Origin: Saccoglossus kowalevskii
Lineage: Eukaryota > Hemichordata > Enteropneusta > Harrimaniidae
NCBI RefSeq assembly: GCF_000003605.2
Contig: NW_003120922.1
Location: forward strand, 677,756-741,755
Direction: 5' to 3'
Length of the DNA: 64,000 nt
Under the pieces are notes generated by a model. It was not told the origin of the DNA and made no database searches. It worked only from the letters and a program-made list of their open reading frames with translations. The position numbers and the translations under genes were made by a program. Positions 6,001 to 64,000 of this stretch are shown here, one piece after another (position 1 is the stretch's first letter; every line of letters starts with the position of its first letter).

Positions 6001-9000
6001 ATTTTACCATATTTTCGCCGATTGGCAAAATTAACAGGCAAAGGAAGAGTCAAGCGTCCCGAGTTATCCACAATGACATATCATTAAGCGGCCGGTGTAT
6101 TACGGAAATGAGATAATAAGTCAGTCCATGTAAGAAACAACAATCAACATAAATGGACGCTGAGTTCTCGTTGACAGCGAGAGAGCTACGATAACAGTTT
6201 TTCTCATTTAAGAGTGTTATTTTCTCATATGTCATTGCGTTCACTGTTTCAAATACCATGTTTTGATAGCTCATTACAATAGGCGCGATGACAGGGAAGA
6301 GTGAAACACTGTTTGAGAAACAAAACAACCCTCGTGATTTCTTTCAACGGCGGGAATCATTGCGTTTTTCTTTCTGTCAATTGCAGCTCTCATGAATGTG
6401 CCCTTCTATTCAACACCAATAGCTGACTGTAGCAATTTGACTGATGTTAGAGAAGAAGATAGATTGTAAATAAATAAATACAATTTAAATCGCATAGGCG
6501 AATTCGTTTATATATAGTTCCCACCAAAAATCGGTTCATACCCCGAAAATATTTCAACGCTATACTACTAAAAACAATACGAACGAGATATTTTTTTAAA
6601 TAGACTGGAATATATTATTTTTAAAACTGTCACAAATCACGAATACGGTACAATTGAGAAAATTACATTATTACCACTACAAGTGCTACAATTTCAGATA
6701 CATATCTATCTTATCCCGCAATTACCTTCCGCTAAAATTCAATAAAATAACGATAGCAATTATTTCGACTGTTATGTACAATATGTTTAATAGTTGTTGC
6801 CGAACCCATAATAGTATATCTGTTGGTGATTAATAGCTTACGTCACTAACATTTGTATATTTCGAAGTTGCGGTAATATCCAACAACACATTTTGAGTTA
6901 CCCAAATGGCGAATAACACACGCTGCGTAGCGACTGGGACCTTGCGTAGCGCATGGGGCGCTTTAAATTGGTTGAAACATCACCGTGTATTATCACTCGA
7001 GGAAAAAAAAAACATCACATTATACCGTGACAAAAATGACATTCCGCGAAAATGACGTCAGTACAACTACTTATTTTTTCGCCTACTCATTTTTGGCGCG
7101 GTTGAGGTGCAGTTGTTGGAATGTATTATGTTTTAGTCTGAATTCTTTCCACAACTCAGCTCTAAAGGTAAATAAGAATTTATACAAGAATTCCGCCATT
7201 AATTGAACTTGACAAATGGGGACACGTGTGTCTTTGAAATGAAACCCGCTAAAATACCTCCTTTTTATGTGATACGCGCGAGACTCAGTGTAATATGTAA
7301 ATATAACGAAATGACCGTCTCTATGGTCAGTCCAATTTCAACAAATGTGCGCATGCATGGCAAAGTGGCAAGGCACCTACAATAAAATCCACCCGGGGTG
7401 TTTAGAATTTCTTTTCAATGTCCGCAATTCGTATATTTGGCGATCATAAGAGATAAGAGATATATATTGTAGTTAGCAGTGCGATTTCTGAGCTTGATTT
7501 CATACTAAGCCGAACGCGTTGCCATGGTTACTTAGTCCTCAATGCAATATGCGTTAAAGCGAATTTTCGTGTCTGCTGGCCCGTAGCTTTATCGTTCCAC
7601 GCAACACCGACAGCGCTGCAAAACTCCCGTTAAAGTTATATAGGGTTTAATTTACGTCATTAGGACAATCACAGCGAGGGTAAATTCATTCTTCACCCGC
7701 CTAAAGCTAAGACTATACCAAAGCATAATCTTTTCATTACCAGAAGATTTTTTATTATCATTCCGAAAGATTATTCTCCCAAATCGGCTACTTTTGGATA
7801 TTATTTAAATGAATTTACGAATTTGATATTGCCTTCCTCAATTTGTCTGAACAGTTCCTTTTTTATGTTCATTGATGTACTCGAACATCATTAACCAATT
7901 GATATTAATTAGTCAACGCATCTACACTTGAACGCACGCACGTTTTTTTTTTTAAATGTACGTGCAGACATGTTTATGGTTCGTAACAAATATGCCAACA
8001 GATGCAGGGGGGTGTCGAGATGCAGTTATTAGACATTACAATGTGGTTACCAGGACAACACCAATATTTAAATCATTCTACATGGGTTCTTATTCAATTT
8101 GTATAAACATAAAATTGGGCTTAGTTTCCCTTGTTGTTACCAACATGTGAAATCGACGCCGCTACAATCGCGAGACATAATAATAGTAACATTACAAGCC
8201 GGTAAGTTAGAAAAAAAACTACACACATTGAAAAGTGGCTGCGGCGGTAGTAATGCTCCTTTTTTATTTACGTAAAACACTCTGCAGGAAATTACTCGAA
8301 TTTTGTTCTCGTCAATTGAATTCAACGCAGTGGGCTGTCTTTCCACACTACTTATATCCAATATAGTTCTCAAAACGCTCAATGGGTGTGGGAACACCAC
8401 CAGTGATAAGTACATAACCTACATATATTTCATTATAACTGTAGTGTCGTGTATCGTCACGGGCGCTCCTTTCTTGCATTTGGACCTTCTAAGAATACTA
8501 ATCTAACACGTGTATAATTTCAGAGTTTCTTTAGTCACGTGACCAAACTGTTTCAAGTAAATTTGAGGCACGATTCATAGCGTAGGCTGTATAAACAAGG
8601 CTGGCATGCGGAGATTCTGTGACAGAATATTCAGTGAATATAATATGTACATGTACCAGAAGCATCAATGGTAGTTTCTTTTTGTATGAAAACGAGCTCA
8701 TTCTATTCAACTGGAGAGCCACACGACTGTTTCTTGTCCCCCCCTAAAGTGTTCCATTCTGCACCTCCGTCGCGTCTAATGTTCCGCTAACCTATTTAAA
8801 AATGCCTATTGGAAGTGTAGATGAGATGGAGTATAAAACACTCCTATTGGCAAACCAAGTATCGTGGCTCGCTCACTCTCAACGCGAATACAGCGGCCGT
8901 TTGCGAATAAGCTCGATGGTGAATATAAATACAAATTATTTAAATACGTCATTACGTATGTAGAAACTGTGGAAATTTTAACACGTTCTTTAATACATAA

Positions 9001-12000
9001 AGATATTAGAAACTTATAAGATATAAATGCGAACCTGGTGCTGTCGGCCATTTTGTTTTTTGTTTCAAAATATTTAAACATCAAATTATGAAGTAAAGAG
9101 TACAATTATGTTGTGTGGTGTCTTGGAATAATTTCACATGTCTGGGTTCAACGCATTAAAGTAACTGCTCAGAGACGTCGAAACATTTAGGAATTATAAT
9201 TATCTTCTTAGTCATTCTACAAGAGTTTTGATGTTTGTTCTGCAGCGGCGCAAATATGGCGGAGAACATCAAAGTCTATCTTGTAACACAGCTGTATATT
9301 TCTATGTCATCGTTTGTATGCAACTACGAAATCATTTCTACGGTATCGGGGCTACTTTCTTGGTAATATAACCAACTGATGATATTTGGCCAGTAGGAGG
9401 ATGGGGAGGAGGAGTAGAAAGAAGGAGATGCGGAGGCAAGTATTAACTGGATAATACAAAAGGATGATTTCGATTCGTGGGAGTATGGCGCCTACAGTGC
9501 GAGGTAACAAAAGGGTGCGTGATTTTTAATTGAAACGCTATAAATTAAAAAAAAAAATGTGTCATCGTGCGTAACTTCTTTATAGATATTTATAGATGTA
9601 TTTCTTCGGTTAAAAAACACCCTCTATGCAACGTGACATATCACACAAACAGATAAGTTTTTTTTTGATTTCTAAGTAATGTACACAATTATTGAAATAT
9701 CATTCATGAGCAGAAATTGAACGATGATACGTGGAAAGCCACGCATGTAACGCAAAACTAAACCGAACTATATTTTTTTCTTTAAATGGTGAAAAGGTAA
9801 AAAACGCAATCAGATAATGCAAACATCCGAAGTTTTATTAAAACCGATATTACGTTTTTGAAAACTGTTTTACTGTAATTTAGCTAATTTCAATTCATTC
9901 ACCAATGTGTGCCTCTCATTCGAAGAAGCGTACATAATTCTCAGCCCTTTAACAATTTATTGTAATAAAATAAATCGTTATAAGATGGAGTTTGCAAAAA
10001 TCCGGTGAGAATATACTATTCAAGAACACGTTTGATTATTTTTATATTAAGCGGTAAGATGAAAACAAAAGTTTTAATTTTAGGATTTTTTATTCATGTC
10101 AGTACTTAACTAGTTACCATATTGAAAATAGGGTTTACTATATAACCAAATTATTATTATTACATTATACATTTTTGAATATGAATATTAAAAAGGTGTG
10201 TATATTTCAATTGAAACAGTTCATGTAGAAATTAAAGTTACATAGACCCATTATCTACGTCCGAGATGTAAGTGAATTTATTCATGCTACGACGGTTATA
10301 CAAGCCCAAAATTAAATAAACTCACATAGCAATTTTCTATGCGATTTGAAACATAATTCCAATCTTAGTTACGGCGTACATATGTATGTACGAATATAAC
10401 ACAACTACGACATCGTGGGTGTAGTATATCGTGGGGTAAACCTCAAATCACATGTTGACGATGAAATGACAATGTGTTTTTCCCAGCGTGGATTTATAAA
10501 TTGATATGACCATATTAGGCAAATATCACATCCAAATATTAGTATATATAGTATATGTACACTGGTTATGATGTTTATGAAACAGAACGTAAATAAGTGC
10601 CTTCATAAAGTACGGAAACAAATATTGCTTTAACATGCTTGTATCACCTTCTCGACTGATAATATTCAACCATTCCATATTTGGGCATGTGTCGTTCGCA
10701 GTAAGAGGGATTTTCCACGCATCAGATACTGCATTAAAGGTTAAACCACGGAAATTAAAGACGAACAAATTGATTTCTGGGAAATTATTCTCAACGCGAT
10801 TGTTTAGCAAATTGAAAAAAAGTGCATTCTTCAAAGAGGATAACAACTCTATCCAATGAGAAAGTTGTCAATGATTACTCGTCTTGTTGAAGTCCGGAAT
10901 TGATTTATGCATATTTAATGCAAATTAAACGAAAACCATTAAATGGCATGTCGGCAACGCAGCCGGAAGACTCACGGGATGTTGACACGAGGTGCAAGCG
11001 CGATGGATTTATAGTTGAATATACGAGGAGTTGTGTCAAATACAGAGTCGATCTGATTTATTTTAATACACCAAACGACTCTTTGCTGTATATCGCGTGT
11101 GTTGTTAACACGTTGTATCAGGCTAATTTCATGTTTGATCGTAAAATTTCTCGTGTTGTCGTCGACTTGGTTAAATGGAAACAGATACACCTGATTGCAA
11201 GTACACTATCAATACTATTGTAGGAGGCGACTTGTAATTTTAATCTGGGAGGTTAACCGAGATTTATTTTGAACAGACAACCCTTTTTTTTCGTTGATTT
11301 ACAGCCAAGTTAATACCAACAACCGACATCGTTGTAGACAGTCTTTGTCGGCAATGTCAACAAGAACACACTCAAGTAATATGAGAAGGAAAATTCCAAT
11401 CATTTTCATTTAATTGGTCTGTGTCAGAGGTTTGTTAATGTTGAAGAGACTCCATTGAGATGCAACAGTGGGCTTCTGAATTGTCGAGTACCCATATATG
11501 TTTTGTATCGTTATACATCGATTCTTAAGTAACATACACAACCTCCCTCCTTTTAATTGGATTTTTTAATTAGTTAATATTTTCAGCGTAATTAATGGCA
11601 TCAGAACAATGAACTTATATTATATAATATTAAAACCGAATAAATCATAAAATCTCAAAAAAGCCCCCAATTAAACTTATATACATTATTATAACTATAA
11701 AACATTAATATATTGATTAAAATTGAAATATTGTTTACGTCCTTGATTCTAACCTGATCATCAAGACGAGGATACCGATGGAACCGTGTAGGTATTAATG
11801 CAACGTGGGCAGTATGAACAATTACAGCGGCGTGTAGAGTGCTTGACATAAGTAAACAGGAATGCGCACATCTGAAGCCACTATACGCATTCAAGTTGGT
11901 GCATAATTTCCAGCCCATTGTCTACGTCAACTGAGCAAATAAAATGCAAAAGAGTAGAGAATGAGTATAATAGACATTTCTCCTCTCTCTCCCACGGGCG

Positions 12001-18130: not shown

Positions 18131-18349
18131 TCATTTGTGACCACGCCATTGATTATATAGGCTACCACACACTGTATAATATTGAGCAGAAAGCCATGCA
18201 ACAAACTGCATTTCATTCACCACATTGGCATAGCTGGCTGTACTCATTCTTACTTTTTCATGATCATTGTTTGGCCCACTACAATTTTCTTGTGATTTAG
18301 GCGGATTTTTGTCACATGCAATAAGCAGCAAGAGCAGCAATGTGTACAT
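18131..18349 (-). CDS. small ORF with signal-peptide-like start, doubtful
   Basis: A 72-codon frame begins MYTLLLLLLIACDKNPP, which looks like a short secretory or lipoprotein-type signal. It also contains a possible splice donor (AAA|GTAAGA) after about residue 32. It lies inside the CpG-depleted domain, downstream of the stop codon of the minus-strand gene at 19631, so it would fall in that gene's 3' untranslated region. The leucine run comes from a CTG/CTT-rich stretch and may be chance. The remainder has no recognisable features. I list it only because a hydrophobic start followed by a donor is unusual in this window. Confidence 0.15.
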   Translation of the reverse strand: MYTLLLLLLIACDKNPPKSQENCSGPNNDHEKVRMSTASYANVVNEMQFVAWLSAQYYTVCGSLYNQWRGHK

Positions 18350-19748: not shown

Positions 19749-20275
19749 NNNNNNNNNNNNNNNNNNNNNNNNNNNNNNNNNNNNNNNNNNNNNNNNNNNN
19801 NNNNNNNNNNNNNNNNNNNNNNNNNNNNNNNNNNNNNNNNNNNNNNNNNNNNNNNNNNNNNNNNNNNNNNNNNNNNNNNNNNNNNNNNNNNNNNNNNNNN
19901 NNNNNNNNNNNNNNNNNNNNNNNNNNNNNNNNNNNNNNNNNNNNNNNNNNNNNNNNNNNNNNNNNNNNNNNNNNNNNNNNNNNNNNNNNNNNNNNNNNNN
20001 NNNNNNNNNNNNNNNNNNNNNNNNNNNNNNNNNNNNNNNNNNNNNNNNNNNNNNNNNNNNNNNNNNNNNNNNNNNNNNNNNNNNNNNNNNNNNNNNNNNN
20101 NNNNNNNNNNNNNNNNNNNNNNNNNNNNNNNNNNNNNNNNNNNNNNNNNNNNNNNNNNNNNNNNNNNNNNNNNNNNNNNNNNNNNNNNNNNNNNNNNNNN
20201 NNNNNNNNNNNNNNNNNNNNNNNNNNNNNNNNNNNNNNNNNNNNNNNNNNNNNNNNNNNNNNNNNNNNNNNNNNN
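19749..20275. other. assembly gap
   Basis: A run of 527 N. It interrupts the minus-strand gene; open frames drawn across it are artefacts of the unknown bases. Confidence 0.99.
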
Positions 20276-20640: not shown

Positions 20641-21733
20641 ATACTGCATTGTTAGACTCTTCATGCCAAGGGGGATACACTCTTTAATTAATTTCCCCGT
20701 AGGCACACGTACTAGCCTTGAATTAAACCAAACTTACATGTAGACTACTTATTCGCAATTATAGTATATCAATACATATCAACATCGGCCAAAATACACC
20801 TCGGGCAATGAATGAGGCTATAAACCTAAGGCACAAACAACTATGCGTAAATATTGAGACGAATCCAGATACAATTAGCAATGGGTTAAATATTGTTTAA
20901 TTCTAAGAAAACGAATTCTGAAATGATATGAAAAGATACGATAGATATGAAAATGTACATTTCAGATCAACGCAAACGACGCCATTAAACCGAATTCTCA
21001 TAGCACTCGTTCGTTCGCCTTACAGCGTCAACAAGTTCGCGGCGTCTGTGTGAGGTGATGTGCGTACAAAGTTGTTCGACAACCGTTTTAGTTATTCCAG
21101 AGAATAGATTATGATAGTGTAAAACCTGTTTATATATGGGAAAAACACAAATGTCTCAACATAAACAGAATTAAGATATATGAATTTTCGTTTATGCTCA
21201 GTGTATCTAAAATTCCACCGCGTTTGTTACGTGTATGTTCTCTTTTACTATGTGCGCTTCCAAAACGCTTCGTTGCAGTTTTGAGTTACGGCATTTGAGG
21301 GATTAGTTATATCCATAAAACAGAAGTTATAATGGTTTAATATAAAAGCAATAAAACATTGGTCGGCTAGGTATACCGCGAGAGTTTCCTTTTACTGTTA
21401 TGTCTGTGTCGGACTTCAATACACAATCCCGTAGTTTTTCCATACACTGGCAATGATTTGGTGCTTAACTAACTAACTTTTTAGTTCGTAGAATAACACC
21501 CAGTTCAGTTTAAGTATTATATTGATATGTTTAAAACAAAATCGCAGATTGAATTCCCGAAATATATACTGATTACATGCAAGTCAGTATAACGAATTTC
21601 CCCCATTAACATTCGATTATTTTCTGGCGGTTCACAGCCAGAAACATAGGACATGTTTTGTTTTTTATTATTTCCACGTCCACGCTGCTATTATAGATGC
21701 AATAATGCTCTGCGTATATATTCAATTTTCCAG
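20641..21733. other. non-coding stretch upstream of the peptide array exon
   Basis: CpG returns to normal frequency here. No ATG on the plus strand opens a hydrophobic signal-like frame that ends in a splice donor in the phase the array exon requires. The last bases before the exon (TATTCAATTTTCCAG) form a good polypyrimidine tract and acceptor, so at least the end of this stretch is intron. A 7-bp inverted repeat (TTCTGGC/GCCAGAA) lies at 21622-21643. The in-frame ATG at 21653 lies inside this intron and its residues do not resemble a signal peptide. Confidence 0.5.
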
Positions 21734-22372
21734 GTTGATGATACAGACGACAAAAGAAGTTGGAAAGCAGGGTTAATTAAAAAAGATGATACGGAGTTAG
21801 ATAAAAAGTGGAAAGCAGGACTTTTTAAGAAAGACGAAGAAGACGCAGCGGACGATGAAAAACGCTGGAAAGCGGGACTTTTTAAAAAAGACGATGAGAA
21901 AAGGTGGAAAGCTGGTTTGTTTAAAAAAGATGTCTACGACGATGAGGAGGAAAAGCGCTGGAAGGCAGGCCTTTTCAAGAAGGATGACAGTAAACGTTGG
22001 AAAGCGGGTTTGTTTAAGAAAGACGCTGAACTAGACGCAGAAAAACGCTGGAAGGCAGGCCTCTTCAAAAAAGACGAAGACGACGCCGAAGAATCGAAGC
22101 GCTGGAAGGCGGGTTTGTTTAAGAAGGACGCAGAGGATGAGAAACGATGGAAGGCCGGCTTATTCAAAAAAGACGCAGAACAAGACAAAAGATGGAAGGC
22201 AGGACTTTTCAAGAAAGATGACGATCTTGATGAAAAGAAATCGTGGAAAGGAGGCATTTACAAAAGGGACGCTAAACGATGGAAAACTGGAATTCTTATT
22301 AAGAGGAATTCACCGGAAACGGAATATGACGTTGATAATAAAATCTTGGAAGAAATTGAAAAAGACTACGAA
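21734..22372 (+). CDS. multi-copy secreted peptide precursor, array exon (WKAGLF-type peptides)
   Basis: This phase-0 exon of 213 codons runs from the acceptor TTTTCCAG to the donor GAA|GTAAGT. It encodes twelve tandem units. The first peptide is SWKAGLI, then come nine copies of WKAGLF, then SWKGGIY and WKTGILI. Nearly all are preceded by KR (two by KK) and followed by KK or KR. Spacers of 2-9 residues are almost wholly D, E, A and S, for example DEEDAADDE. Prohormone convertases cutting at the dibasic sites would free hexa- or heptapeptides with a free C-terminus; no glycine is placed for amidation. A non-repetitive acidic tail (about residues 185-213) ends EEIEKDYE. All four alanine codons and several Gly, Leu and Phe codons are used in the copies, so the protein, not the DNA, is what is preserved. 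The exon lacks a signal peptide, which must come from an upstream exon. Peptide family not recognised. A repeated cationic host-defence precursor is the main alternative. Confidence 0.85.
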
Positions 22373-22559
22373 GTAAGTGTACACAACTTGCCAATACATT
22401 GCATCTATTTTTAATCGTTCCGGGCTTTTGGGCGTTGAGTCCTACATGAACAATAAAAAATACGGAGACCACTAATAACAATTTGCTAAATGATTAAGTT
22501 CATGAAATAAAACATTCACACCGATGAAAACTTAAAATATAATTAGATTTGTTTTTCAG

Positions 22560-31958: not shown

Positions 31959-32273
31959 NNNNNNNNNNNNNNNNNNNNNNNNNNNNNNNNNNNNNNNNNN
32001 NNNNNNNNNNNNNNNNNNNNNNNNNNNNNNNNNNNNNNNNNNNNNNNNNNNNNNNNNNNNNNNNNNNNNNNNNNNNNNNNNNNNNNNNNNNNNNNNNNNN
32101 NNNNNNNNNNNNNNNNNNNNNNNNNNNNNNNNNNNNNNNNNNNNNNNNNNNNNNNNNNNNNNNNNNNNNNNNNNNNNNNNNNNNNNNNNNNNNNNNNNNN
32201 NNNNNNNNNNNNNNNNNNNNNNNNNNNNNNNNNNNNNNNNNNNNNNNNNNNNNNNNNNNNNNNNNNNNNNNNN
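31959..32273. other. assembly gap
   Basis: A run of 315 N. Frames drawn through it are meaningless. Confidence 0.99.
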
Positions 32274-34729: not shown

Positions 34730-37173
34730 ACGCAATCTGTTTTTTTCTCGTTCAAAATATTAATTCGAATACAATTATTTACCTTTTTTTTGGACATTGG
34801 TCATCATCTTTTCAGGGTTTTTGTCCTCACTGCGAAATATTATTTGCGGGTCATCTAGTGTCTGGAAAATGCGAAACATGATTGTGGAAAATTGTTATAG
34901 GATTTGATATTAAAACATTAGCAAATAAGAACACTTGTGCATCTCTATTTTAGGTTTTGTATATTGTTAATTTTGTTAAATATCGGCTTTTAAAATTGTA
35001 TTTAGAAGGCCATCATAACGCCAAAGAATGGCTGAATCAATTTGTTGTCATCAATAATGTTTTTCAGCAATATTTATTCGACGGGAAAGCTATTAAGTGA
35101 AATCGACACAATGGGTGAATGCACACAATCCAATCATTTTTACATTAAAAAATATTGAGTGTGAAAACACAAAACATTTGAGATATGGTGAGACGGTTTT
35201 ATATAGGGTTGCATGAAAACCAGTATGAAATATGACCACATTGTAAAAATATAGGATATGTTTTAATGGCACTCAATGCAACGAGCTCGTGTTTTGTATT
35301 TTTGCACGCGTTGTCATTGAACGTAATTCGGTGTTTAGACTACTGTGCTTCAATTCTTATATACGTTAAGAGCACAACATTATTATTTATTTTTTTAAAA
35401 AAGATAATTTGTTCGCATGTTATCAGTCAGAAAAGTTATTTGTGCTATGGCTGATAATTTCACAACAGATTTGCCGATGACCAGCCGATCTCGAAGTTTA
35501 ACCCAAGCAGATTAAATTGAATGAGTTTCTAGTGAAGAGATAGAAGAGTTTACTGTAAAATTACAGTCCCTCTATATAGCGGCAAAATGTTGTGAATATG
35601 TTTGGCCCCCAAGCGGCGAAGTCGGTTGAACAAGTCGTTTTTATGGTGTTTCGCTTCAGCCTCCAGATAGATGTACGGAAAAAGGATGTATTTGTTTCAA
35701 TGGTACCCTCTGCTTACGTTATATGAGCAATATTGTCCAATTATTGAAACATGGGGTGATAAAGAATTGGAATAGAGAACGGCAACGAGTATAAGAACAT
35801 GGCACACGAAAGAAATGCAGGACCGTCTATCCTATGTAGCGCCCCCTACGGGTAAATGATGCAATTATTAAAACCTGCCGTTAAAAAGGGCGCGGTGGAC
35901 CAGGGCACTGAATAACAACACACTGCAGGTTGAAATCGACTACGTATGATACATTGGCAACGCGATAGCAACGGTGTACTCCACATCATCGTCCTCGCTT
36001 CTCCGTCACACTGGCTTAGGTACAGCGACGTTAATAATATCACTGCCTCGGTTGGATGATATGTTACCATGGAGACCATCATCTGAAGATCATCTTTCGC
36101 AGTGAGTACACGTGTCACTTAGGGTCAATGTTCGGTGTGTATGTACGTTTCAGCGGGTTGTAATGTCTGCCATATGTCTGTATGTTATATGTACATTGTC
36201 ATTGTCGGTCGCAGTATTGAACGCTTCTAAAATAGATGACCCAATTTATTTTAAAATTCATATTAATATTATTTGCGGTTGATGTTGTACTACACATTAT
36301 GAGGTATATTGGGTATCTGCTTGGTATATATTATATATATTTAAAAAGTGGTGAGTGATACGCTGCTAGAATTAGAGGGTATTGTACGAAGTGGTTAGCA
36401 TATTGGAGCATCACACAGTCGGAATTGACACGAACATACGCTAAGGGCAATAGGGATATATCGTGACAGGTTGCTTTAGCACGCGTCGCGATTTGGATTG
36501 CGAATATCTCGGCTGCAATACGCGCCCAGAATGCTCCTCCGCCCAGGTCAGAATTGTGGAAGTACAGCAAGTGATTGGAGCATTGCGCTGACAGCAATAC
36601 AGCGATAAATGACAATATATGGAGGCAATACGCAAGTGGCTTCAGTGACACATGGCCGACATTGCAACCATATATCGGAGACTGGGACAGCACATGTGCA
36701 CGACAGAATAAAGGTGGTGGATGGTCGATAACGACTAGATGAACGTAGATGGTCCATTTCCCTAATAAATGTTAGCACTGGGTTTAAATACGATGTGGCA
36801 GATGCCGTTCCGTGCACTATTAGTTCAACGAAGCGTGAACGAATAGTGGTGTCAAAAGCTGAGCACCCGCGCGCTTTCAGAACTGACACTAATGGTCGAG
36901 ATGTTCGCTTAGATCAACATCGTTTTAATCCTCAAGCCGGAGTTGCCATAATGAGACGAAAAGATATCACCAAAAAGTCAGTTAGCGTCACGTGCCGTGT
37001 AATGGGACATGGGTTATACAAATGATGTCACGTAGCCGCGTGAGCTGTCAGCTTGATGATTTTTAAAAGGCTAGAAAAACACGCTAATATTAAAGTCGAT
37101 AATAATATTATGTGATATTTGTCTTTTGAACCAGAACAAAAATGCTCTTTACTGACAGAGACAATTAATAAAA
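34730..37173. other. non-coding stretch with a GC-richer segment
   Basis: No supported gene. The part at about 36400-37030 is richer in GC and has open frames on both strands (such as 36331-36693 and 36548-36889 on the minus strand), as expected from composition alone. None shows a domain or exon boundaries that agree with one another. Confidence 0.45.
35839..35852 (-). promoter_or_regulatory. CTCF-like site
   Basis: Read on the minus strand, CCCGTAGGGGGCGC matches the commonly quoted CTCF core (CCASYAGRKGGCRS) at 13 of 14 positions and is followed by TA. CTCF is found across bilaterians, so a functional insulator or boundary site is possible. A single 14-base match in 64 kb is weak evidence alone. 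Confidence 0.35.
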
Positions 37174-37358: not shown

Positions 37359-39141
37359 TTTTTTGAGACGTACAATGTTCTACTTGGAAATTATAATTTC
37401 CAGTTTCTTGTTTTAGGGTCCCTGTGAAACAGCTTGCAGCTGATGGGGACTACCATGTTTAAATGAGAGTAAATACATTTAAGTTAAACAAAAATTAACA
37501 ATACTGCAAAAATAGAAAACAAAATACTAGATACCAATTAATCTCATGACTTTGGGCGTTGTAAGTAGACCAGGAATCATGATACCCGTAGAGTGGTTCG
37601 ACTACGCCATTAACAAAGTATATGTTGCTAATTAATAATATTTTTTTAATAAGTCGACATTCAATAGGGCGTATCACCCGAACACTGAATACTGCGCAAA
37701 CAGACAGCGATGTGGGATGTACACAGATGGCGTCCCTTTGTAGACATTGGTAGCTGCTGCTGGTGTCTAAAATCATGAATAACTGTATCTTATGTCGCAA
37801 TTGAATTGTCATGCAGGTTACTATGGGAAACCGATTTTACCGACGCACCATTAGATTTTGTGAGAAAGGTATGTACGCTTTGGAATAAAACAAACTATAA
37901 AAAATGCGACAGGCGGTCATGCGTTGTTTTATTTTAATTCAATACTGAGGTCTTCATACAAAATGGATAATTGCCGTATTTTAAACCCCACTAGTAAAAT
38001 GTTGTGCTACCACACCATAACAATCGCAATCGTCACGGTAAATTAATTGGAGCTAACACCGAGAATACCGAGTAACAACTTTATTCACTTTAGCCTGTAT
38101 CTCGCTTACGCATTTAAAAACCAACTGTGCCGTCACTATGATTTCGACAGACAGGCACATCAAAGGTAATCCAACAAGGAGGTGCATCGGGATTCGATGA
38201 CAATGTCCCACCTGATCAATGTATACATCTATTTTGTCATAAGCGGAGAATAGACATGAAAGAAAGACAGATAGACAATGTTTGTGTATAAATGTGGTTG
38301 TTTGAGCGAACGTTGGATTTTTACAAAATGGCGGATCCGTATAAAAACTGTTGTCATGATGCATACTATGATTTTGACGAAGGAAACGATTTTATGCATT
38401 TATTATAAACGCTGTCTCAACTATGTAAATAAATTCCGTTCTCATTTTTAACAGAAACGAACATTTTAATACTTGTTTATGGTCACGCAGCTGAAAGATT
38501 GTTCCGTGAAAATTAAAAACTGTACTATTTTCTGGGAATATAAATGAACATGTTTACAGTATAATATATTGTGGCGCGAATTAATTTTTGCTGAAAGTAT
38601 TTTCACGGGATTTTATTTTCACAGATTTATTCCTTCGGCAAATATCAATTCTAAGTTGAAATATAGTTGCGCCCTCAAGCGAGTAAGCGCTGTTGTGGCG
38701 TAATGGGTTAATTGACGTCATTCACAAATTTCGCTGGTTCTCATCGTTCCTTGCGAACGGTAAGCAGGACGCCAGTAACAAATAATCACTCTTGTCCGGA
38801 ATTGCAGCTCTAGATTCAGAGGACTGAGTGGCGTAATTTGAAAACAATAACGTCATATACAGTTTGCCTGCTTAGACTTCACATTTGAGAAAGTGATAAC
38901 AAACGAAACGGTTTAATTAGAACACAGTTTGAGAACTTGACGAACCAATCAGAATGCCGCAACCGCAAATTCAATCAATATTAATGTGGACGCGACTGAA
39001 CACCTAGATCTCATTGACGGCGAGAGAGCCACGAGACTTGGTTAACCCATCAAATATTGTTCTATTCAATCTCGTAATTGCGTTCACAGTATTGTCAGGG
39101 AAGGATGTAGACTGTGACGTAGTGTTGTGTGAACTCAGGAT
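37359..39141. other. non-coding stretch
   Basis: No gene supported. Open frames at 37495-37812 and 38053-38364 (minus) have no recognisable features. A GCGCCCTCAAGCGAG word near 38670 resembles 41765 (GCGCCCTCTCGCGG), both followed by AAGCGCT or TAAGCGCT, a possible pair of very decayed repeats. Confidence 0.45.
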
Positions 39142-39526: not shown

Positions 39527-41128
39527 CACTGTCAGATGCCCATATACCACATACTTGCTAAAAGCGATACGGATATTGTTTTAGAAACCACGCTTGTTGA
39601 TAGCAATGTGAAGATACGCTTGATATTGTTTCAATACAGGCATCTCCCGTGGAAATTCTGACAACAATGCCTATGATGGGTGTCCATACGAGCGATGTGA
39701 CAGTATCATAAATACATAGGTCGGTGGAACATTGGGCGTTATGCCACTATTTGAGAGGCGAAAAGACGTCCCCTGACTATCTCGCTATCAATGAGATCTC
39801 GCTATCAGTGAGATCTCGCTATCAGTAAGGTCTCGACAGCTATTTGCAACTTACCTAAATCCATGATTGACAGCTACGTGCGAGACGATCTGAATACTGA
39901 ATACTGGACAACAAAAACACCAATCAGAGAGAACATCGTATTCATTCTAACTTAATAGCGAAGAGTGACTGACTGTGCAGTAAAATAAACCAGATATTGT
40001 TGAGAGAGAATACAGAACTGTACAAATAGAAATATTAATTTAAATATTAATAATCACTGCAATAAAAATACAAATCTGCAATTCGAACGGATGTGACAAT
40101 AACCATACCTCTTTATGTACAGGGGATTGATTTGAATAATTACAATTGTACTATTAAGTAGTTTATGCAGAATATTGTTTTCAAACGAATGTTGAATACC
40201 CCGAAATCACTTTCAGTTGATCAAGTATTGCCAGGTGGTATAAATGACGTAATCTATGGTACATTTTACACTTATAGAATACATAATATTTCACTGGGGT
40301 GAATTAAATTATGGTTTTAAAGATATGCATATTTTTTGTCGATTAATTTTAACCAAACTGTCTGGCAATATGGTGCTGAGAACAACGTGGAGAATATTTA
40401 GGACACCCTTTTTTGTTAACACTGCTAAGTATTTTTGAGAGCGTCTCGTCGCCATTGGCGTAAAGGTTGTTAAAAATGATGATCAAAATATATTACATGG
40501 AATAAATATACTATACTACTATATACGTCTAAAAAGACGTGTTGATCATACCCCGTTGAAAGAGAGAGCGAAAGAGAGATCCACGCGATATTGTATTATA
40601 CCTTTCGTCTATCTTCACACTCGTTATTTCATGGTTAGATGGTTATATAGGTCAGGGGAAAATGAACGCAATGACAGAAAAAAAAGAAAACTCTATTTGG
40701 CCAGCAAAAAAAAAAACAAGTCTCGTGGCTATCTCGCTCTCTCGGTATCTCGGCGGCCATTTTTCATAAAGCATTCTATTACTACTACCATTGTAGAAAA
40801 ATATAACTGGTGACGTAACCATTAACTTTTGTTTCAACTGCTTCCGCTAGCATGCGTTGGCGGATGTCACTGACGACCGATGACCACATTAACTTCATGA
40901 CGTATCTGTTTTTGAAAAAAAAACAGCCATCGAATATGTTTATGGTGGTGTTCTTTAGGGTAATTATGGCGTCAACTCAACAGAACAACAGACACCAGTC
41001 GATTAGCTGGTGCCGTGTGTGTTATTCTAGCAAAAATGAATACTCCTTTGTTATCAAAATATTGGCAGCTTGTGGGTCATCATATACTGACATTTAAGTA
41101 GTTTTACAATATATTTTACACCGTATTG
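39527..41128. other. non-coding stretch
   Basis: No gene supported. A tiny tandem repeat lies at 39781-39834. Short open frames at 40556-41097 (plus) and 40652-40837 (minus) are unremarkable. Confidence 0.45.
39781..39834 (+). repeat. 17-bp tandem repeat, three copies
   Basis: CTCGCTATCAATGAGAT, CTCGCTATCAGTGAGAT and CTCGCTATCAGTAAGGT follow one another, ending in CTCG. Each unit contains the small palindrome-like ATGAGATCTC. Confidence 0.85.
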
Positions 41129-49396: not shown

Positions 49397-49397
49397 T

Positions 49398-49484
<87 letters not shown>

Positions 49485-49549
49485 TTTGTTTGTTTGTTTG
49501 TTTGTTTGTTTGTTTGTTTGTTTGTTTGTTTGTTTGTTTGTTTGTTTGT

Positions 49550-49608
<59 letters not shown>

Positions 49609-49640
49609 TTAATTTGTTTATTTATTTGTTTATTTATTTT
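49397..49640 (+). repeat. compound microsatellite (TTTA)22-(TTTG)16-(TTTA)15
   Basis: Pure TTTA runs from 49397 to 49484, then pure TTTG to 49548, then TTTA to 49608. A broken tail of TTTG/TTTA words reaches about 49640. The three long plus-strand open frames here (IYLF... and CLFV... periodicity) are products of the repeat, not genes. A T16-G10 homopolymer pair lies just upstream near 49342-49368. Confidence 0.97.
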
Positions 49641-51420: not shown

Positions 51421-52990
51421 GTTACATGTAATATAGTACTCAGTAACACTTAATATACTATACAGTAACACGTAATGTAGTACACAGTAACACATAGTAT
51501 AGTACACAGTAAAACGTAATATAGTACACAGTAACACCAAATATAGTACTCAGTAACACTTAATATACTATACAGTAATACGTAATGTAGTACACAGTAA
51601 CACATAGTATAGTACACAGTACACAGTAAAACGTAATATAGTACACAGTAACACATAATATAGTACTCAGTAACACTTAATATACTATACAGTAACACGT
51701 AATGTAGTACACAGTAACACATAGTATAGTACACAGTAAAACGTAATATAATACACAGTAACACCTAATATAGTACTCAGTAACACTTAATATACTATAC
51801 AGTAACACGTAATGTAATACACAGTAACACATAGTATAGTACACAGTAAAACGTAATATAGTACACAGTAACACGTAATATAGTACACAGTAACACTTAA
51901 TATAGTACACAGTAACACTTAATAGTACACAGTAAAACGTAATATAGTACACAGTAACACCAAATATAGTACTCAGTAACACTTAATATACTATACAGTA
52001 ACACGTAATGTAGTACACAGTAACACTTAATACAGTACACAGTAACACTTAATATACTATACAGTAACACGTAATGTAATGCACAGTAACACATAATATA
52101 GTACACAGTAAAACGTAATATAGTACACAGTAACACGTAATATAGTAAACAGTAACACTTAATATAGTACACAGTAACACTTAATAGTACACAGTAAAAC
52201 GTAATATAGTACACAGTAACACCAAATATAGTACTCAGTAACACTTAATATACTATACAGTAACACGTAAAGTAGTACACAAAAACACATAGTATAGTAC
52301 ACAGTAAAACGTAATATAGTACACAGTAACACATAATATAGTACTCAGTAACACTTAATATACTATATAGTAACACGTAATGTGATACACAGTAACACAT
52401 AGTATAGTACACGGTAAAACGTAACATAGTACACAGTAACACGTAATATAGTACACAGTAACACTTAATATAGTACATAGTAACACTTAATAGTACACAG
52501 TAACACGTAATATAGTACACAGTAACACTTAATATAATACACAGTAACACGTAATATAGTACACAGTAACACGTAATATAGTACACAGTAACACTTAATA
52601 TAGTACACAGTAAAACTTAATATAGTAAACAGTAACACGTAATATAGTACACAGTAACACTTAATATAATACACAGTAACACGTAATATAGTACACAGTA
52701 ACAAGTAATATAGTACACAGTAACACTTAATATAGTACACAGTAAAACGTAATATAGTACACAGTAACACCTAATATAGTACACAGAACACTTAATATAA
52801 TACACAGTAAGACGTAATATAGTACACAGTAAGACGTAATATAGTACACACTGACACTTAATATAGTACACAGTAGCACCTAATATAGTACACAGTAACA
52901 CGTAATATAGTAAGCAGTAACGCGTAATATAGTACACACTAACACTTGATATAGTACACAGTAACATGTAGTATAGTACACAGTAGCATG
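51421..52990 (+). repeat. 22-bp minisatellite with 110-bp higher-order period
   Basis: About 70 units of 22 bp, with the core GTACACAGTAACACTTAATA. Because 22 is not a multiple of three and the unit lacks stops on the minus strand, all three minus frames stay open and produce false ORFs of 100-116 codons. In the left half, variant units recur in fixed order, so the marker ATATAGTACTCAG appears at 51431, 51541, 51658, 51768, 51964, 52226 and 52336. Four of the six steps are 110 bp or 110+7. The right half is more homogeneous. Confidence 0.95.
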
Positions 52991-53330: not shown

Positions 53331-54533
53331 GGCGTAGTGCGAGGTACACAAGTTCAACATGGCTGTGGGCAAGTGATTGGAAAACGCAGCGGTCGTACAA
53401 TATGACAAATCGTTCAATTAGTCGAAACCTTCAAACTATAAAGTTTGACATTTAGAACCATATTTCACAAAAAACTAACTGACTAATGTACAGGGTTATA
53501 TTTTAATTGAAGTATGCCGCTTTTATAAGCCCATTTCCAACTAGATATGAAAATAATTTTTACCACGTGATTAAAATTGCATAGGCAATTTGCTGTTGCT
53601 CAGTTACGAGTTATATACATTATCAGTCGACTATTCTCCAAAATCTCGTTTCGCTTTATATCTCGTTCGCTAATAATGCATTGCACTATTGAGATATATA
53701 ATGATTTCTCGTTGATACCATTCAGTTTTTTTTTAATAAAAATAAACACAATACCCGCGTTACAGACCCTAGAACGTGTATTGAAATGTTTCTCCATCTT
53801 TTCACGTCTGCTCGGGTGGGTGTTCGCAGCACTATAAAGTAACCGATATACTAGCCACGTACAGCAAATGCTGGTTAATTAGCATAAATGTGCCTCATGC
53901 ACGGCGGGCATGTTTACCACAATTTGTCGAATGAGGATAAAATGTAAACTTACTACCAATTTTCATTTGAATCCCTTTAATGCACTTTCATGCTTTTCTT
54001 TGAGAATCAACGTGGCTCGTCATCAATCTCTTACGTACTCGTTATGCATCAACAATCGAGTAAAGCGCGATAGTCGTATATTTCTATGACAGTCGAAAAG
54101 CTGGGACTCACTTTGCAATTAAATAGGATTTCGTATTTATACTCTCATATGCGTGATATAAATGAAAGAAGTCTGTAGGTGCATTGAATACAGTCTTGGT
54201 GGAACATAAGATTGGTATGGAATCAAACATGTGTGATTTAATATAGTCAATCATGACAGTTACACTGACAATTCAACTGGTAACAAATGACATATTATGC
54301 ACGACTATGGCATAATATGCAGCAATTCCACATATGACATATTGTGCAGTAACGTAAGACATAATATGCACTCATATATGACGTAGTACATAGTAAGCCG
54401 TGACGTATTACGCAGAAACATATGACATGACTAAAATAACGTATACACACTAAAATGTGACATCATAAAAAGTACCGTATGACAAATTACTTGGTAGCAA
54501 CGTAACAGAGCCACTACACAGTAGAATAATATG
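53331..54533. other. non-coding stretch
   Basis: No gene supported. The last 250 bp contain scattered GACATAATATGCA-type words that look like a second, more decayed margin of the minisatellite. Confidence 0.45.
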
Positions 54534-54663
54534 AGGTTATTACGAGGATACCTCAAAGTATGCACGAAGACAGTACAGCGGGAGTATCGACCGACACGCA
54601 GCTGAGGTCGATGCGACGACGTACTGTCTGAGTGCATACTTTGAGTTACCCTCGTAATAACCT
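54534..54663. repeat. 130-bp hairpin, 43-bp arms
   Basis: The left arm (54534-54576, AGGTTATTACGAGGATACCT...) and the right arm (54621-54663) are inverted repeats matching at 39 of 43 positions, separated by a 44-bp loop. The loop contains its own 7-bp stem (ATCGACC/GGTCGAT). The size and near-perfect pairing fit either a very short foldback transposon or a transcribed small-RNA precursor. It lies in AT-rich flanks (TAATATG on the left, TTATTAATAT on the right). Confidence 0.85.
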
Positions 54664-57340
54664 TATTAATATACATATTTTCCTTCCAAGGATACGTCTT
54701 GGGAATGCCGGAATCCAAAACGTTTAGAACAGAAGCAGCGAGCTTCTTTGTGTGGAGTCCGGTCAAACTATGGTGGCAGCCATGTTTGTTTTTATTATTA
54801 GAGGACGCTCACGCGCGTAATCTCGTAATTTCCTAATATGGTAGGATGAAATTACCCCGTGAATACAGCAAAATTACGGCACGCTGTAGATTGTGGCGTT
54901 ACGGTGACAGATGTATAATTATAAACTATATGTACTATTCAATTTATTGTAACAAGTGCATCAATAACCTTCATTACAATTCCTAAATGAGTTCAATCGC
55001 TAGAGATTACGATGTCAATTATTCGAGATCCCGTTCAAACAACGAGCTGCGCTTTCAAGAGTAAATTAACGCCTGATAAAAAAAAATTCCCTTGTCCGAG
55101 CTTTTTTCAACATTGAACACATCACTGTCTGCATGTATCTACGTTGAGGAAATAGACGATTTGCGGCTTTCGACCGTACGTGATATATTGTACGATTACG
55201 TCAGTGACGCGTCAGGCTCGTTTGGAGTTCGTACATGACGCACTTCGTCAACAGTTTATGTTTATCAACATTTGTACAAAGCGACGGTACATTTCCAAAC
55301 ACTTGTTAAACCAAATATTTTTTTGGAGGATTATGTTAGCTGTTTCATAACAACCAACTATAAACAAGGACGACAAAATGCAGGATCATTACGATGTATT
55401 CAGATAAAAAAAAAAATACTGCGTGACACGTGAATTTGTATTATTGAACTAAACCATATTTTGACGATTTTTAATAACAAAATAACTTTCACCGTTCTAG
55501 ATAAAAAATGTACATATGAAGTGCATTCTAAAAATCACCAAAAAGTAAAAGGTCACTAACATTTTGTTATTATTTTATTTTACAATTTTACAATTTATCA
55601 CAAAAATATGGCAGCATTCGGAAAATATTTCTGGGATTTCGAAAAATCGTAAAATATCGGACAAGATAAACATGTAAATACACTTTCCGATTGAAACTAT
55701 TTTATACATCTGCATAGCATTATTCTAAAAAAAAACTACATACTGACAAATATGTTGCTATTTTGCGTGTCGCCAGAGGTACTAAGTAATTTAAGTTGGA
55801 ATATGAAATTAAAATTCCAAACGTGAACGAGGTTGTTTAATTCAATACCCCCTAGGCCGTCTTAAAGATGAATGACTGGTGGGGTATAGACGGCTGTGTA
55901 ATGGGATTTGAAGTAGCGTGTTGAAAAAAAAGAGTAATACCAAAGTGTCGTCTGCGTACTCAGCTGTTCATCAGAAACTGACCTTTGACACTTATTTAGC
56001 TCTATCAAATGTATTGTGTATTCGCTCGCCAATGTTTGCACGTGACCCCTGTGCCCTTGATGCGATTACAAATAATATTACCGTTATTTTGTGTCATTTA
56101 GGGATGTATAAATAGTTATGACGGTGTCACAGTCGTGATTTGACACGAGGACATTTTGGAGAAAAATATTTGGCGCAAAATATAGAACAAAAACAAAAAG
56201 CCACATCAAATGAAATTATAACCTGTATCCTTCTGATACTAAAATGATTAGCATTTCGGCACAACATGTTCGAAAGCAGAAATATTATTCTTCCCAAATG
56301 TCTGCTATGTTTTAGAGTACGCACCGTTGTCAAATTTAAAAGATTTAAAAGGAATATCATAATTTTTATTTAATTATTCGCATGTGTTATACTTGTAGAA
56401 AAGGCAATACTTTACTTTTTTTTAAGGCAATATTAAATAGTAACGAGATACGCTAATGAGAGATCTATCTTTCATTAACCGGAAGGAAAACGGTTGACCA
56501 TGAATAATGGATTTATAGTAAACCATGTTAACGGAGTATGAACTTAACTCTTGTCGTTGACACGTTCTTCCACACCATCTAACTCGTTACAGCTACCAAT
56601 TACGAGAAATTGAAATTCGTTACTGATTCTTAGTTATATATTTAAGTCATGAATTTCTTGGCGTGATGCCAACTTTCAATTCCTATTCTGGCGTGCTTGT
56701 TGTCACGCCTAAGACGTATAGTATACCACTTTTAAGATACTTGTTGGTTAACACGGTTAGTGATATATTATTGTCTTATTGTACCTTATTACATTTTTAT
56801 GATATGATATGACGTATATGCGAAGTGTTTTCAAAAATTGATGATGCGGAACTTATAAATTTCAAACGCTGAGTCTGGATCGAAAATTCTCCTAAAACTA
56901 CAAAATACTGATAATTTTTTTAATTATCTTCCAGTATTATTACAATATACTTCAAGACGCTTCATATCAAATCACAAAGTTCACGAAAGCATTGATCACC
57001 ATGGCTACAGCCCGTGTTTTACATGTGATATTGACATGGCCTTGCAATCTGCATTTCATGACAGGCGGCGTGGAAACGTGACTGTCACACTGAAAAATGT
57101 GGAAATCTATAGCGAACAATTTACGGTATTGATTAGCATTGGTTATTTGAATAGAAAATGCAAGGAACTCGCCTGTGGTGTTTGAACAACTCCCGGGGTG
57201 TATGCGTAAACCTGAAGGTAGACATTGACAGCAGCAATGTATTTTGTTTGGCAAACCTAAACAATCTAGAAACATGAGATGATATAATAATGTTAAGGAG
57301 GCGCAACATTACACTTTTTAATGTTATCGGATTAGACAGG
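54664..57340. other. non-coding stretch
   Basis: No gene supported; open frames at 54431-54766 (minus) and 56967-57275 (minus) have no recognisable features, and the former overlaps the hairpin. Confidence 0.45.
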
Positions 57341-61000: not shown

Positions 61001-61960
61001 ATAATGTGTTTTGTGTATGGGAGGTTAATCAGTATATACACCCACAAATACACATCATCATCCTAGAAGATTTCGCGTACGTCATACTATCATACGTTGT
61101 CCTGAGATACAGAGCATCCCAGAATACCGTACCATATGAAATAAAACATACATCTTTAGTAATTATTTTTTGATGCCGCATGTTGATGAACTTATTGAAT
61201 CTATAAGTATCGTTGTTGTTCTTTATTGCAGTAGAAATAGAAAATAAAAAAGAAAATTTATCGAAAAAATAGACTTGTCTTGCGAAAAAAAAGCAGCTGT
61301 TACTTCATTATAATCACAATGCGAAGTGTTTAGCAAGATACTATTATATCAAACAACGATGTAATAATGCATGTTTTTATTCTTATTGCATTTTTAATCT
61401 TTATATAATGTTGGTTAAATGTGAACGTTGACGGGATTGCTGAACATTCGTTTATAATTTTTCTTTGTTTTAGGTATCACCCAGCATGGAGATACCATAT
61501 AAAAGGCGGTGGTGCTTACATGCAATTCGAAATTGTTCATTGCCGTATCGGCTACCTTAGGTAGTTTGGTTCATAAATTGTTGATTAGCTTCCATATTTG
61601 TTTCTTATTTTCAAGTAAATTTTGTCATTCAAGCAACGCTCTGTGTTGTCTACTATTGCCTATATATCGCATTCATTGATCATTATTGTCAAACATTCCG
61701 GACGGCAGCGAGAGGATTGTATTTTGTTAAGACGGCGACGAAGCAGTTCTATTTCTTGTAATTCGATTGCAATCCAATTGTATGTATGGATCAACAATAG
61801 ACCGGGCACATAACTTATTTTCACCCGGTATAAACTGGTGTGCAGTATCTATGAATGATTATTGATTTATTTCAATTACATGAGCCGGATTACCTTCTAG
61901 TATCATCGGTATGTCAATAAATAATTTGGACTTTGCCTCGGAGCGGTATGAACCGGTGAC
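58093..61960. other. non-coding stretch
   Basis: No gene supported. The frame at 58559-58777 (plus) is preceded by an acceptor-like ATTATAG and reads fairly naturally. But it has no partner exon or domain, and its length is common by chance here. Confidence 0.4.
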
Positions 61961-62290
61961 CTTTATTCGGATGGTGACATCAGGAAAACGAAGCCTAGAG
62001 TACAAAAGTTGTATCAGGGCGTTGACCAAACGGCCAAACACAGAGAGCAAAACAAGTTGACCAGGTCCGGTGTATATGTCCGAGTCTGTCTCTCTAAAGT
62101 AGCATGTTTTTTTATAAGGTAAATCATGTGATCCAAATTGATACATCACACCTTTTATGATAGGACAGTGATTCAATACACCCGCATAAGTTTCCCCTGA
62201 AAATACATTGAATAAAAATACAAAAGTGATTTTAGCACCTCCACATCGTGATAATGTTTTACGGACTATATTATAACACGTGGTGCCATA
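61961..62290. repeat. dispersed repeat, copy B
   Basis: Homologous to 39142-39526 in the same orientation, but about 55 bp shorter. The 145-codon minus-strand open frame across it (61859-62296) begins within the repeat and continues into unique sequence. The shared residues (ETYAGVLNHCPII) reflect shared DNA, and I do not regard the frame as a gene. Confidence 0.8.
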
Positions 62291-64000
62291 AATCAAACGA
62301 TGAAAATTAACAAAATCAACGAAAATCCAGGACGAGGTTCTAGCTTAACTTATTAATCTGCTCGCCACTCATGTCAAGAGTCTATATCACACTGTTTTGT
62401 TATGTACACTGCAAAAAAAAGTAAAGTCACTGTCTGAATTGGATAATAGTTTTTACAGACATAAAATCAACTAAGTTGAAAATAACAACCTTCTCTATAA
62501 ATATTTTGGAATATATTAAATAAAAATCGCCCCACCATTGAATTTACAGTGTGTGTATATTAAATAATGACAGTGTTATTAAAAAAGAACGCATTTGAGA
62601 AAAAAAAAAGTGTGCGGCATGTTACCGTTTAACTAATGGTTTTCTGGGGCAAATAAGTAATTGTGTGGTTTCCGTGGATACTCAGCGACTGTGAGACAAT
62701 TATGTTGCTAACATCTGATGCACAATCAAGTGTTTATATAAATGCAATGAGTTCAATATTTGTTCGGCGGCAATTCAAATGTCTAAAGCAACAGAATGTT
62801 AACTCCATGGCGACACCTATCAACATGTATTTACGTTTTTGTTTAACTATATATACTATACGTTAATAAGGGTAAATGAAACTTTGAAATTGAACACACG
62901 TTTCTTCGTGAAATATAATTAATTTCCATTTTCTAATGTAGTATATACATTCTCTAAGGTGACGTGTACTGAGTTTAAACTCGCGTTATCCTGAGATATA
63001 AATGAATGGAATGAAGACACAAATGTGAAAATGTTTCAATTATAAAATGGGAATAGTGAACGACGGAAAAAATATAGTAGTCTACATGCATTCTCGCCGT
63101 TCCTTTCAACTTGTAGAGATAGCGATCAGGCCATACTAATCATCATGTTTGCGTTTGAGGCATTTGTTTGTGGGTGGGTAGTAGAGTAATGCTAACAAGA
63201 TCATTAACAACTTTACCAAACGTGCAAAATGTCTTTAATCGTAGATTTCTGCAACACGACGAGCTGATGACAATAAAACTGCATGCAAGTCACGTGATTT
63301 ACGTTTGCTACAGATGGAGATATCAATTACATGGCGGCCGATTGAAAATAAGTTGCAAGCGACAGAGGCCGAGCCGCGAGTCGGTATTCCCTGATTGCTT
63401 AGTGCGTCTGTCACATCGCTGCTAGATCGTGAAATTGAAAACACCAAAATAGAAACCATAATTTAAATGTGTGTGTGCTTCGGGGCTTCGCTGTAAAATA
63501 AGATAGAAGACTTTTGAAACATTTATTGCCATCGCCTAGGCAACGTAGATGCCATCTGTATATGTACGGATTCGCCATCATTTCTGTAAAAGCTCTCAAG
63601 TTATCACCGAGATGAGCTATATGCGGACATACCGGTTACTCAAATATTTGCTTACTCAAAACGTCGGTCGAAATTGACTACAGGCCATTTCGGGTCAGTT
63701 AGGCCATTTTGGGTCAGTCAGGTTGTTTGCGCGTACGCATCGCCAGAAATGAGTGGACAAGATGGCCGACTTCCGCCCTGGCCAGTGTTCCCCAGTCAAA
63801 TAAACATCACAGGATGTGCCATAGAGAATGCATTGCATAAACATATATTAAAACAAAATTTAATTTTGAGTTTAAATTTTTCATTTTTTCACTTTTGTGT
63901 GCTTCGTAATAGAGAGGTGACGTTCCAAGCTTTCGATATGTTATAGATGTTTCCATTAAAACTCCACCATTAAATGCCCAACTTGCCGAAAAACCTGATG
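62291..64000. other. non-coding stretch
   Basis: No gene supported. A CACTGCAAAAAAAAGTAAAGTCACTG word at about 62406 resembles the end of a DNA transposon, but no inverted partner was found nearby. A 15-base direct repeat (GGCCATTT(C/T)GGGTCAGT) is doubled at about 63683-63720. Confidence 0.4.

Follow-up and report, generated by a model that had tools for sequence, protein, structure and literature searches.

A Saccoglossus-type acorn worm is predicted here to carry the gene of a secreted, multi-copy signalling-peptide precursor of the neuropeptide type, a reading that as a whole is given a probability of roughly three in four. Its central feature is an exon on the plus strand of the window (the whole stretch of DNA analysed, 64,000 nucleotides, C1344:677756-741755) at 21734-22372, which reads open over 213 codons without a stop and is in phase 0 at both of its proposed ends. 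The exon encodes 12 WK[AGT]G[LI]x units set apart by acidic spacers; all 12 have KR or KK at both flanks, and nine of them read exactly WKAGLF. These nine are units 2 (21809-21826, KK-WKAGLF-KK), 3 (21866-21883), 4 (21905-21922), 5 (21959-21976), 6 (21998-22015), 7 (22049-22066), 8 (22103-22120), 9 (22148-22165) and 10 (22193-22210), all on the plus strand. The other three, on the same strand, are WKAGLI (unit 1, 21761-21778, KRS-WKAGLI-KK), WKGGIY (unit 11, 22244-22261, KKS-WKGGIY-KR) and WKTGILI (unit 12, 22280-22300, KR-WKTGILI-KR), with an extra Ser ahead of the Trp in units 1 and 11. Each of the 11 inter-unit spacers, which are 2–9 residues long, contains Asp or Glu and none contains Lys or Arg, and Gly precedes the C-side dibasic in 0 of the 12 units. 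An earlier note on this DNA had claimed twelve dibasic-flanked units with nine exact copies, acidic spacers and a layout leaving the C-terminus free, all of which were reproduced by these counts. When the residues of the exon protein were shuffled 5000 times WKAGLF was never seen, and no 6-mer reached more than 4 copies, against the 9 observed. Tandem Repeats Finder places four overlapping or partial arrays within the exon, with 70–82% matches.

The nine identical WKAGLF cores are written in nine distinct DNA sequences. Nei-Gojobori counts over all pairs of these cores gave pS 0.96 and pN 0.04, the latter arising from multi-step paths between codons for the same residue, and over all 12 cores pS was 0.88 and pN 0.11. 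With synonymous sites near saturation and residues identical, selection on the peptide is indicated rather than recent copying, because duplication or gene conversion would leave similar DNA. The peptide has also been kept while the spacers vary, in a comparison that lies within one gene.

The acceptor region of the repeat exon (21714-21733, plus strand) ends in TTTTCCAG, is followed by GTT in phase 0, and scores 3.8 in a simple home-made scheme, placing it in the top 2.2% of the window's 2991 AG sites on that strand. At the other end, if the exon is internal, a GTAAGT donor on the plus strand at 22373-22378 (context GAA-GTAAGT) reaches 8.7 bits under an approximate scoring matrix. If this donor is unused, 13 further codons on the plus strand (22373-22414) would add the C-terminal tail VSVHNLPIHCIYF before a stop at 22412-22414, with an AATAAA beyond it at 22452-22457; the window has 78 such hexamers on its plus strand, or ∼0.07 expected per 60 bases. 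A following or last coding exon was sought downstream with acceptor, acidity and hydrophilicity filters, and none stood out. The 3' end is either the donor at 22373 with a further exon, or the stop 13 codons on, and the splice is not certain. Correct splice sites had been claimed previously; the acceptor scores well, but use of the donor is less sure, with no next exon recognised.

A candidate signal-peptide exon, MKIVTTLALLLVMIASYQSSVLADDEQ, begins 1,151 bases upstream of the window on the same contig (C1344:676605-676685, plus strand), in the 10-kb segment examined there (C1344:667756-677755). The listing of ATG frames gives MKIVTTLALLLVMIASYQSSVLADDEQVG followed by a stop at 8850-8939 of this segment, and the exon DNA, ...GATGAACAG, is followed by GTAGGT. 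It encodes MKIVTTLALLLVMIASYQSSVLA and then DDEQ, directly after which lies the phase-0 donor, strong at 10.2 bits; the hydrophobic core scores 3.27, an A stands at -3 relative to the ATG, and the predicted signal peptide has a conventional ...VLA cleavage motif, as judged by rule. The repeat exon opens with VDDTDDKR, so that the acidic stretch runs on across the proposed junction. The intron between the two exons would span 22,803 bases, and the precursor so far would comprise 240 residues including the signal peptide, with 61 Asp or Glu and 63 Lys or Arg.

The signal peptide was called from its hydropathy and the score of its donor, against controls whose thresholds were fixed after the exon had already been seen. 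The same thresholds admitted three weaker candidates in the rest of the plus strand of the upstream segment, and none in the upstream part of the window. The control sequence (115.6 kb), comprising the minus strands of the upstream segment and the window and the plus strand downstream of the repeat exon, gave 20 candidates, the best donor among which scored 8.0 as opposed to 10.2; in three of the 20, two of them being one frame, the hydrophobic core was stronger (3.51, 3.51 and 4.19), but their donors were weaker. The 65 kb downstream of the signal exon contain 175 acceptors with a score of 2.5 or more, and among these the longest phase-0 reading is that of the repeat exon (226 codons with read-through), the runner-up of 86 codons sitting in a TTTA array. 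We infer that the two exons are joined in one gene, though the signal exon could instead belong to another gene, and additional exons are possible. The earlier note had made its reading depend on a signal-peptide exon in a transcript; what is present is a candidate exon in genomic DNA, with a predicted junction. The candidates within the window are all weak, such as those at 10059 (MKTKVLILGFFIH) and 17956 (MCKYLYISLVYAASNNEI), with donors of 5.2 and 5.7 bits, and were superseded by the upstream exon, and an in-frame ATG at 21653 (MFCFLLFPRPRCYYRC...) has a hydrophobic core judged by eye to be too short. Among the controls, a signal-peptide-like frame on the minus strand at 18254-18349, MYTLLLLLLIACDKNPPKSQENCSGPNNDHEK, has a fair donor (8.0) and may be chance or part of another gene.

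Joining of ...GATGAACAG to GTTGATGAT would give a two-exon transcript, whose chain would enter the secretory pathway by way of the signal peptide. Prohormone convertases would then cut the KR before most of the Trp residues and the KK or KR that closes each unit, the basic residues would be trimmed by a carboxypeptidase, and nine WKAGLF per chain, together with SWKAGLI, SWKGGIY and WKTGILI, would be stored and released. Since Gly is absent ahead of the C-side dibasic in every unit, these peptides should have a free C-terminus. Their calculated [M+H]+ values are 721.403 for WKAGLF, 774.451 for SWKAGLI, 810.415 for SWKGGIY and 830.513 for WKTGILI. The peptide may then modulate neural or epidermal activity through a G-protein-coupled receptor, the least supported step of the scheme, with a receptor-mediated signal being the most likely use. 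A secreted signalling peptide had been proposed before; its precursor part is strengthened by the signal exon, the conservation at residue level and the lack of a structural match, while the signalling use is something we infer. Within the precursor reading, WKAGLF itself is given slightly better than even odds as the released form. The main competitor, which shares the same secreted precursor, is that only KR is cut, releasing a longer WKAGLFKK-D form with an acidic tail. The flanks are indeed asymmetric, with 10 KR and two KK on the N side and two KR and 10 KK on the C side (Fisher p 0.003, although the copies are not independent), and Asp comes straight after the C-side dibasic in 11 of the 12 units. 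The asymmetry of the flanks may mean that KK is not cut as KR is, and for convertases a KK with Asp after it is a poorer context than KR. However, the tails following units 1 to 10 vary from 3 to 9 residues, with only the leading Asp and their acidity in common, while the WKAGLF core is fixed, and units 11 and 12 have KR at their C side. Ordered cutting would account for the asymmetry, with KK being retained a less likely cause, and the longer form is rated as unlikely. PC2 and PAM are reported to be expressed in S. kowalevskii, together with many neuropeptides, in the part of the source available (PMC10508912).

The same layout could also serve host defence, the acidic spacers of the precursor neutralising cationic antimicrobial peptides, and multi-copy layouts do occur in some antimicrobial precursors. 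The core is cationic, but at six residues with one Lys (three in WKAGLFKK) it is short for a membrane-active peptide. Furthermore, net charges counted by eye for the KR-to-KR fragments of units 3 to 9 lie between about -3 and +1, and acidic and basic residues are close in number over the whole precursor, which makes an antimicrobial role improbable.

It is slightly less probable again that the product is a secreted charged-repeat protein of a structural, mucus or adhesive kind that is left uncut. Alternating acidic and basic blocks and the candidate signal peptide would both suit such a protein, but the spacer lengths vary and paired-basic sites lie at every unit boundary. A match to a structural family had been named beforehand as one of the results that would overturn the peptide reading, and none passed in the libraries searched: Pfam at E up to 10 gave a sole row, Fibrinogen_BP, whose 10.2 bits (E 0.22) fall far short of its cut-off of 50, and no PDB chain or entry of the prokaryote-oriented NCBIfam library matched with an E of 1 or below. 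An open frame that arose by chance, or an unexpressed relic, in either case without connection to the signal exon, would fit exons 22.8 kb apart and the one genomic match, but a relic is not expected to retain nine identical peptides, saturated synonymous sites and 213 codons with no stop, and this explanation is very improbable.

A single locus was found in the genome. A protein search of the 572 Mb assembly, in which 25 candidates were scored, yielded just one match with an E no higher than 0.001. The degenerate pattern KR-WK[AGT]G occurs at 11 places in the genome, nine of them in the repeat exon, and the two stray matches are near chance since the reversed control also gave one. The first (C2918 near 401335) reads KRWKTGIEKGQ in frames that look retroelement-like by eye, and at the second the ORFs listed across the site use other frames; no repeat array accompanies either match in the 3 kb examined. 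Scanning for the exact DNA of KR-WKAGLF-KK gave no hit in prokaryote genomes or viral contigs, which is uninformative on other animals.

A search of the running text of open-access papers gave no relevant use of WKAGLF, KRWKAG or SWKGG: among the matches listed, WKAGLF occurred in an immune-repertoire context, KRWKAG only as similar strings, and SWKGG in unrelated uses. In the main text of PMC4062910, WKAG, WKGG and RWK are all absent, and that of PMC10508912 has no word starting with WKAG, in a test that misses letters inside longer words. The part of PMC10508912 available names VIamide, luqin, WFMRFamide, NNFamide, TRH, achatin and others in S. kowalevskii, and cites Jekely (2013) for the neuropeptides of this species. 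Within open-access full text the peptide appears to be undescribed, as the earlier note had proposed; a prior listing is possible, for instance in the Jekely (2013) catalogue. The kind of gene, a multi-copy secreted peptide precursor, is known, whereas the peptide family appears to be unnamed within the searches made. More tentatively, with odds falling a little short of even, WKAGLF may be the mature ligand of an undescribed family with a free C-terminus and a receptor of its own, restricted to hemichordates or to acorn worms.

No further protein-coding gene was recognised in the window, where the Pfam scan covered ten chosen longer ORFs (36331-36771, 36548-36913, 40439-40813, 54431-54808, 61859-62344, 63590-63943, 10529-10867, 10891-11220, 37498-37836 and 56970-57308). 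Eight of the ten had no row at E up to 1, and two fell below the cut-off (best E 0.023). ARAGORN found no tRNA and there was no Rfam match at gathering scores. The window also holds a minisatellite at 51424-52985, with ∼71 copies of a 22-base unit and long repetitive open frames on its minus strand, the TTTA array at 49397-49639, whose ∼61 copies give a YLFI-repeat reading frame, and runs of N at 19749-20275 and 31959-32273 that may be assembly gaps.

The mitochondrial contig of the assembly (C4830, 17,037 bases) was recognised through COX1, found by profile, with the other protein genes named by eye. COX1 is inverted relative to its neighbours, nad2 precedes nad1, nad5 adjoins cob, and the minus strand carries nad6. 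Parts of two published accounts of S. kowalevskii describe a COX1 inversion, a transposition of ND1 or ND2, and nd5 next to cob (PMC2697986; PMC3121625). In the contig, ATA stands at Ile and AAA at Lys positions, as judged by eye with no alignment, and nad1, cox1 and cox2 contain one AGA and no AGG; the code given in the same partial sources is AUA for Ile, AAA for Lys and AGA for Ser, with AGG absent (PMC2697986; PMC3121625). Gene order and genetic code together place the animal in or near Saccoglossus.

A strongly residue-conserved, multi-copy peptide without a named relative would be either a signal peculiar to its lineage or a candidate for the missing ligand of an orphan receptor. With six residues the predicted peptide is easily synthesised, and with a single locus found in the genome the prediction is directly testable. 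A free C-terminus would, moreover, let WKAGLF evade searches that are based on amidation motifs. Acorn worms serve as an outgroup for inferring the origin of the chordate nervous and neuroendocrine systems.

Vertebrate bombesin-type peptides end in WAVGHLM-amide, and the bombesin type is not known to be multi-copy. WKAGLF bears a faint likeness to it, with Trp followed a few positions on by Gly and hydrophobic residues, but no kinship is claimed, and the bombesin type is, in the part of the source available, amidated, unlike WKAGLF (PMC12002301). The starfish corazonin ArCRZ, HNTFTMGGQNRWKAG-NH2, has the letters RWKAG in common with the present precursor, but is a peptide of 15 residues in which WKAG forms the amidated end, according to the portion of the report available, and the likeness is most likely chance (PMC9974683). 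Membership of the tachykinin, bombesin, corazonin or TRH types is not claimed because the amidation Gly is absent in all 12 units. Pedal peptides of the pedal peptide/orcokinin type have a free C-terminus and are multi-copy, with a motif far longer than WKAGLF.

Pedal peptides are named in the part of PMC5627052 available, where TRH-type precursors are also described, with six copies of pQHPamide in human and multiple copies in echinoderms. These resemble the WKAGLF precursor in holding many copies of a very short peptide, but carry pyroglutamate and amide ends, neither of which WKAGLF has. The GLRFA of Apostichopus, from the sister phylum, is very short and secreted, comes from a precursor with a signal peptide and is, in the part of the source available, listed without an amide, as predicted for WKAGLF; unlike it, GLRFA is single copy, of another sequence, and flanked by a dibasic site on one side and a monobasic site on the other (PMC3432112). 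The same source, again in part, describes an example of the multi-copy neuropeptide precursors of ambulacrarians, the NGIWYamide precursor of Apostichopus, which has five copies between KR sites. Its peptide is amidated from Gly (the repeat being NGIWYG), whereas the WKAGLF units have no such Gly and the sequences are unrelated. The two precursors are nonetheless alike in pairing a signal peptide with identical short peptides between dibasic sites, and are of comparable length, 238 residues for NGIWYamide and 240 for the WKAGLF precursor before a further exon or tail (PMC3432112).
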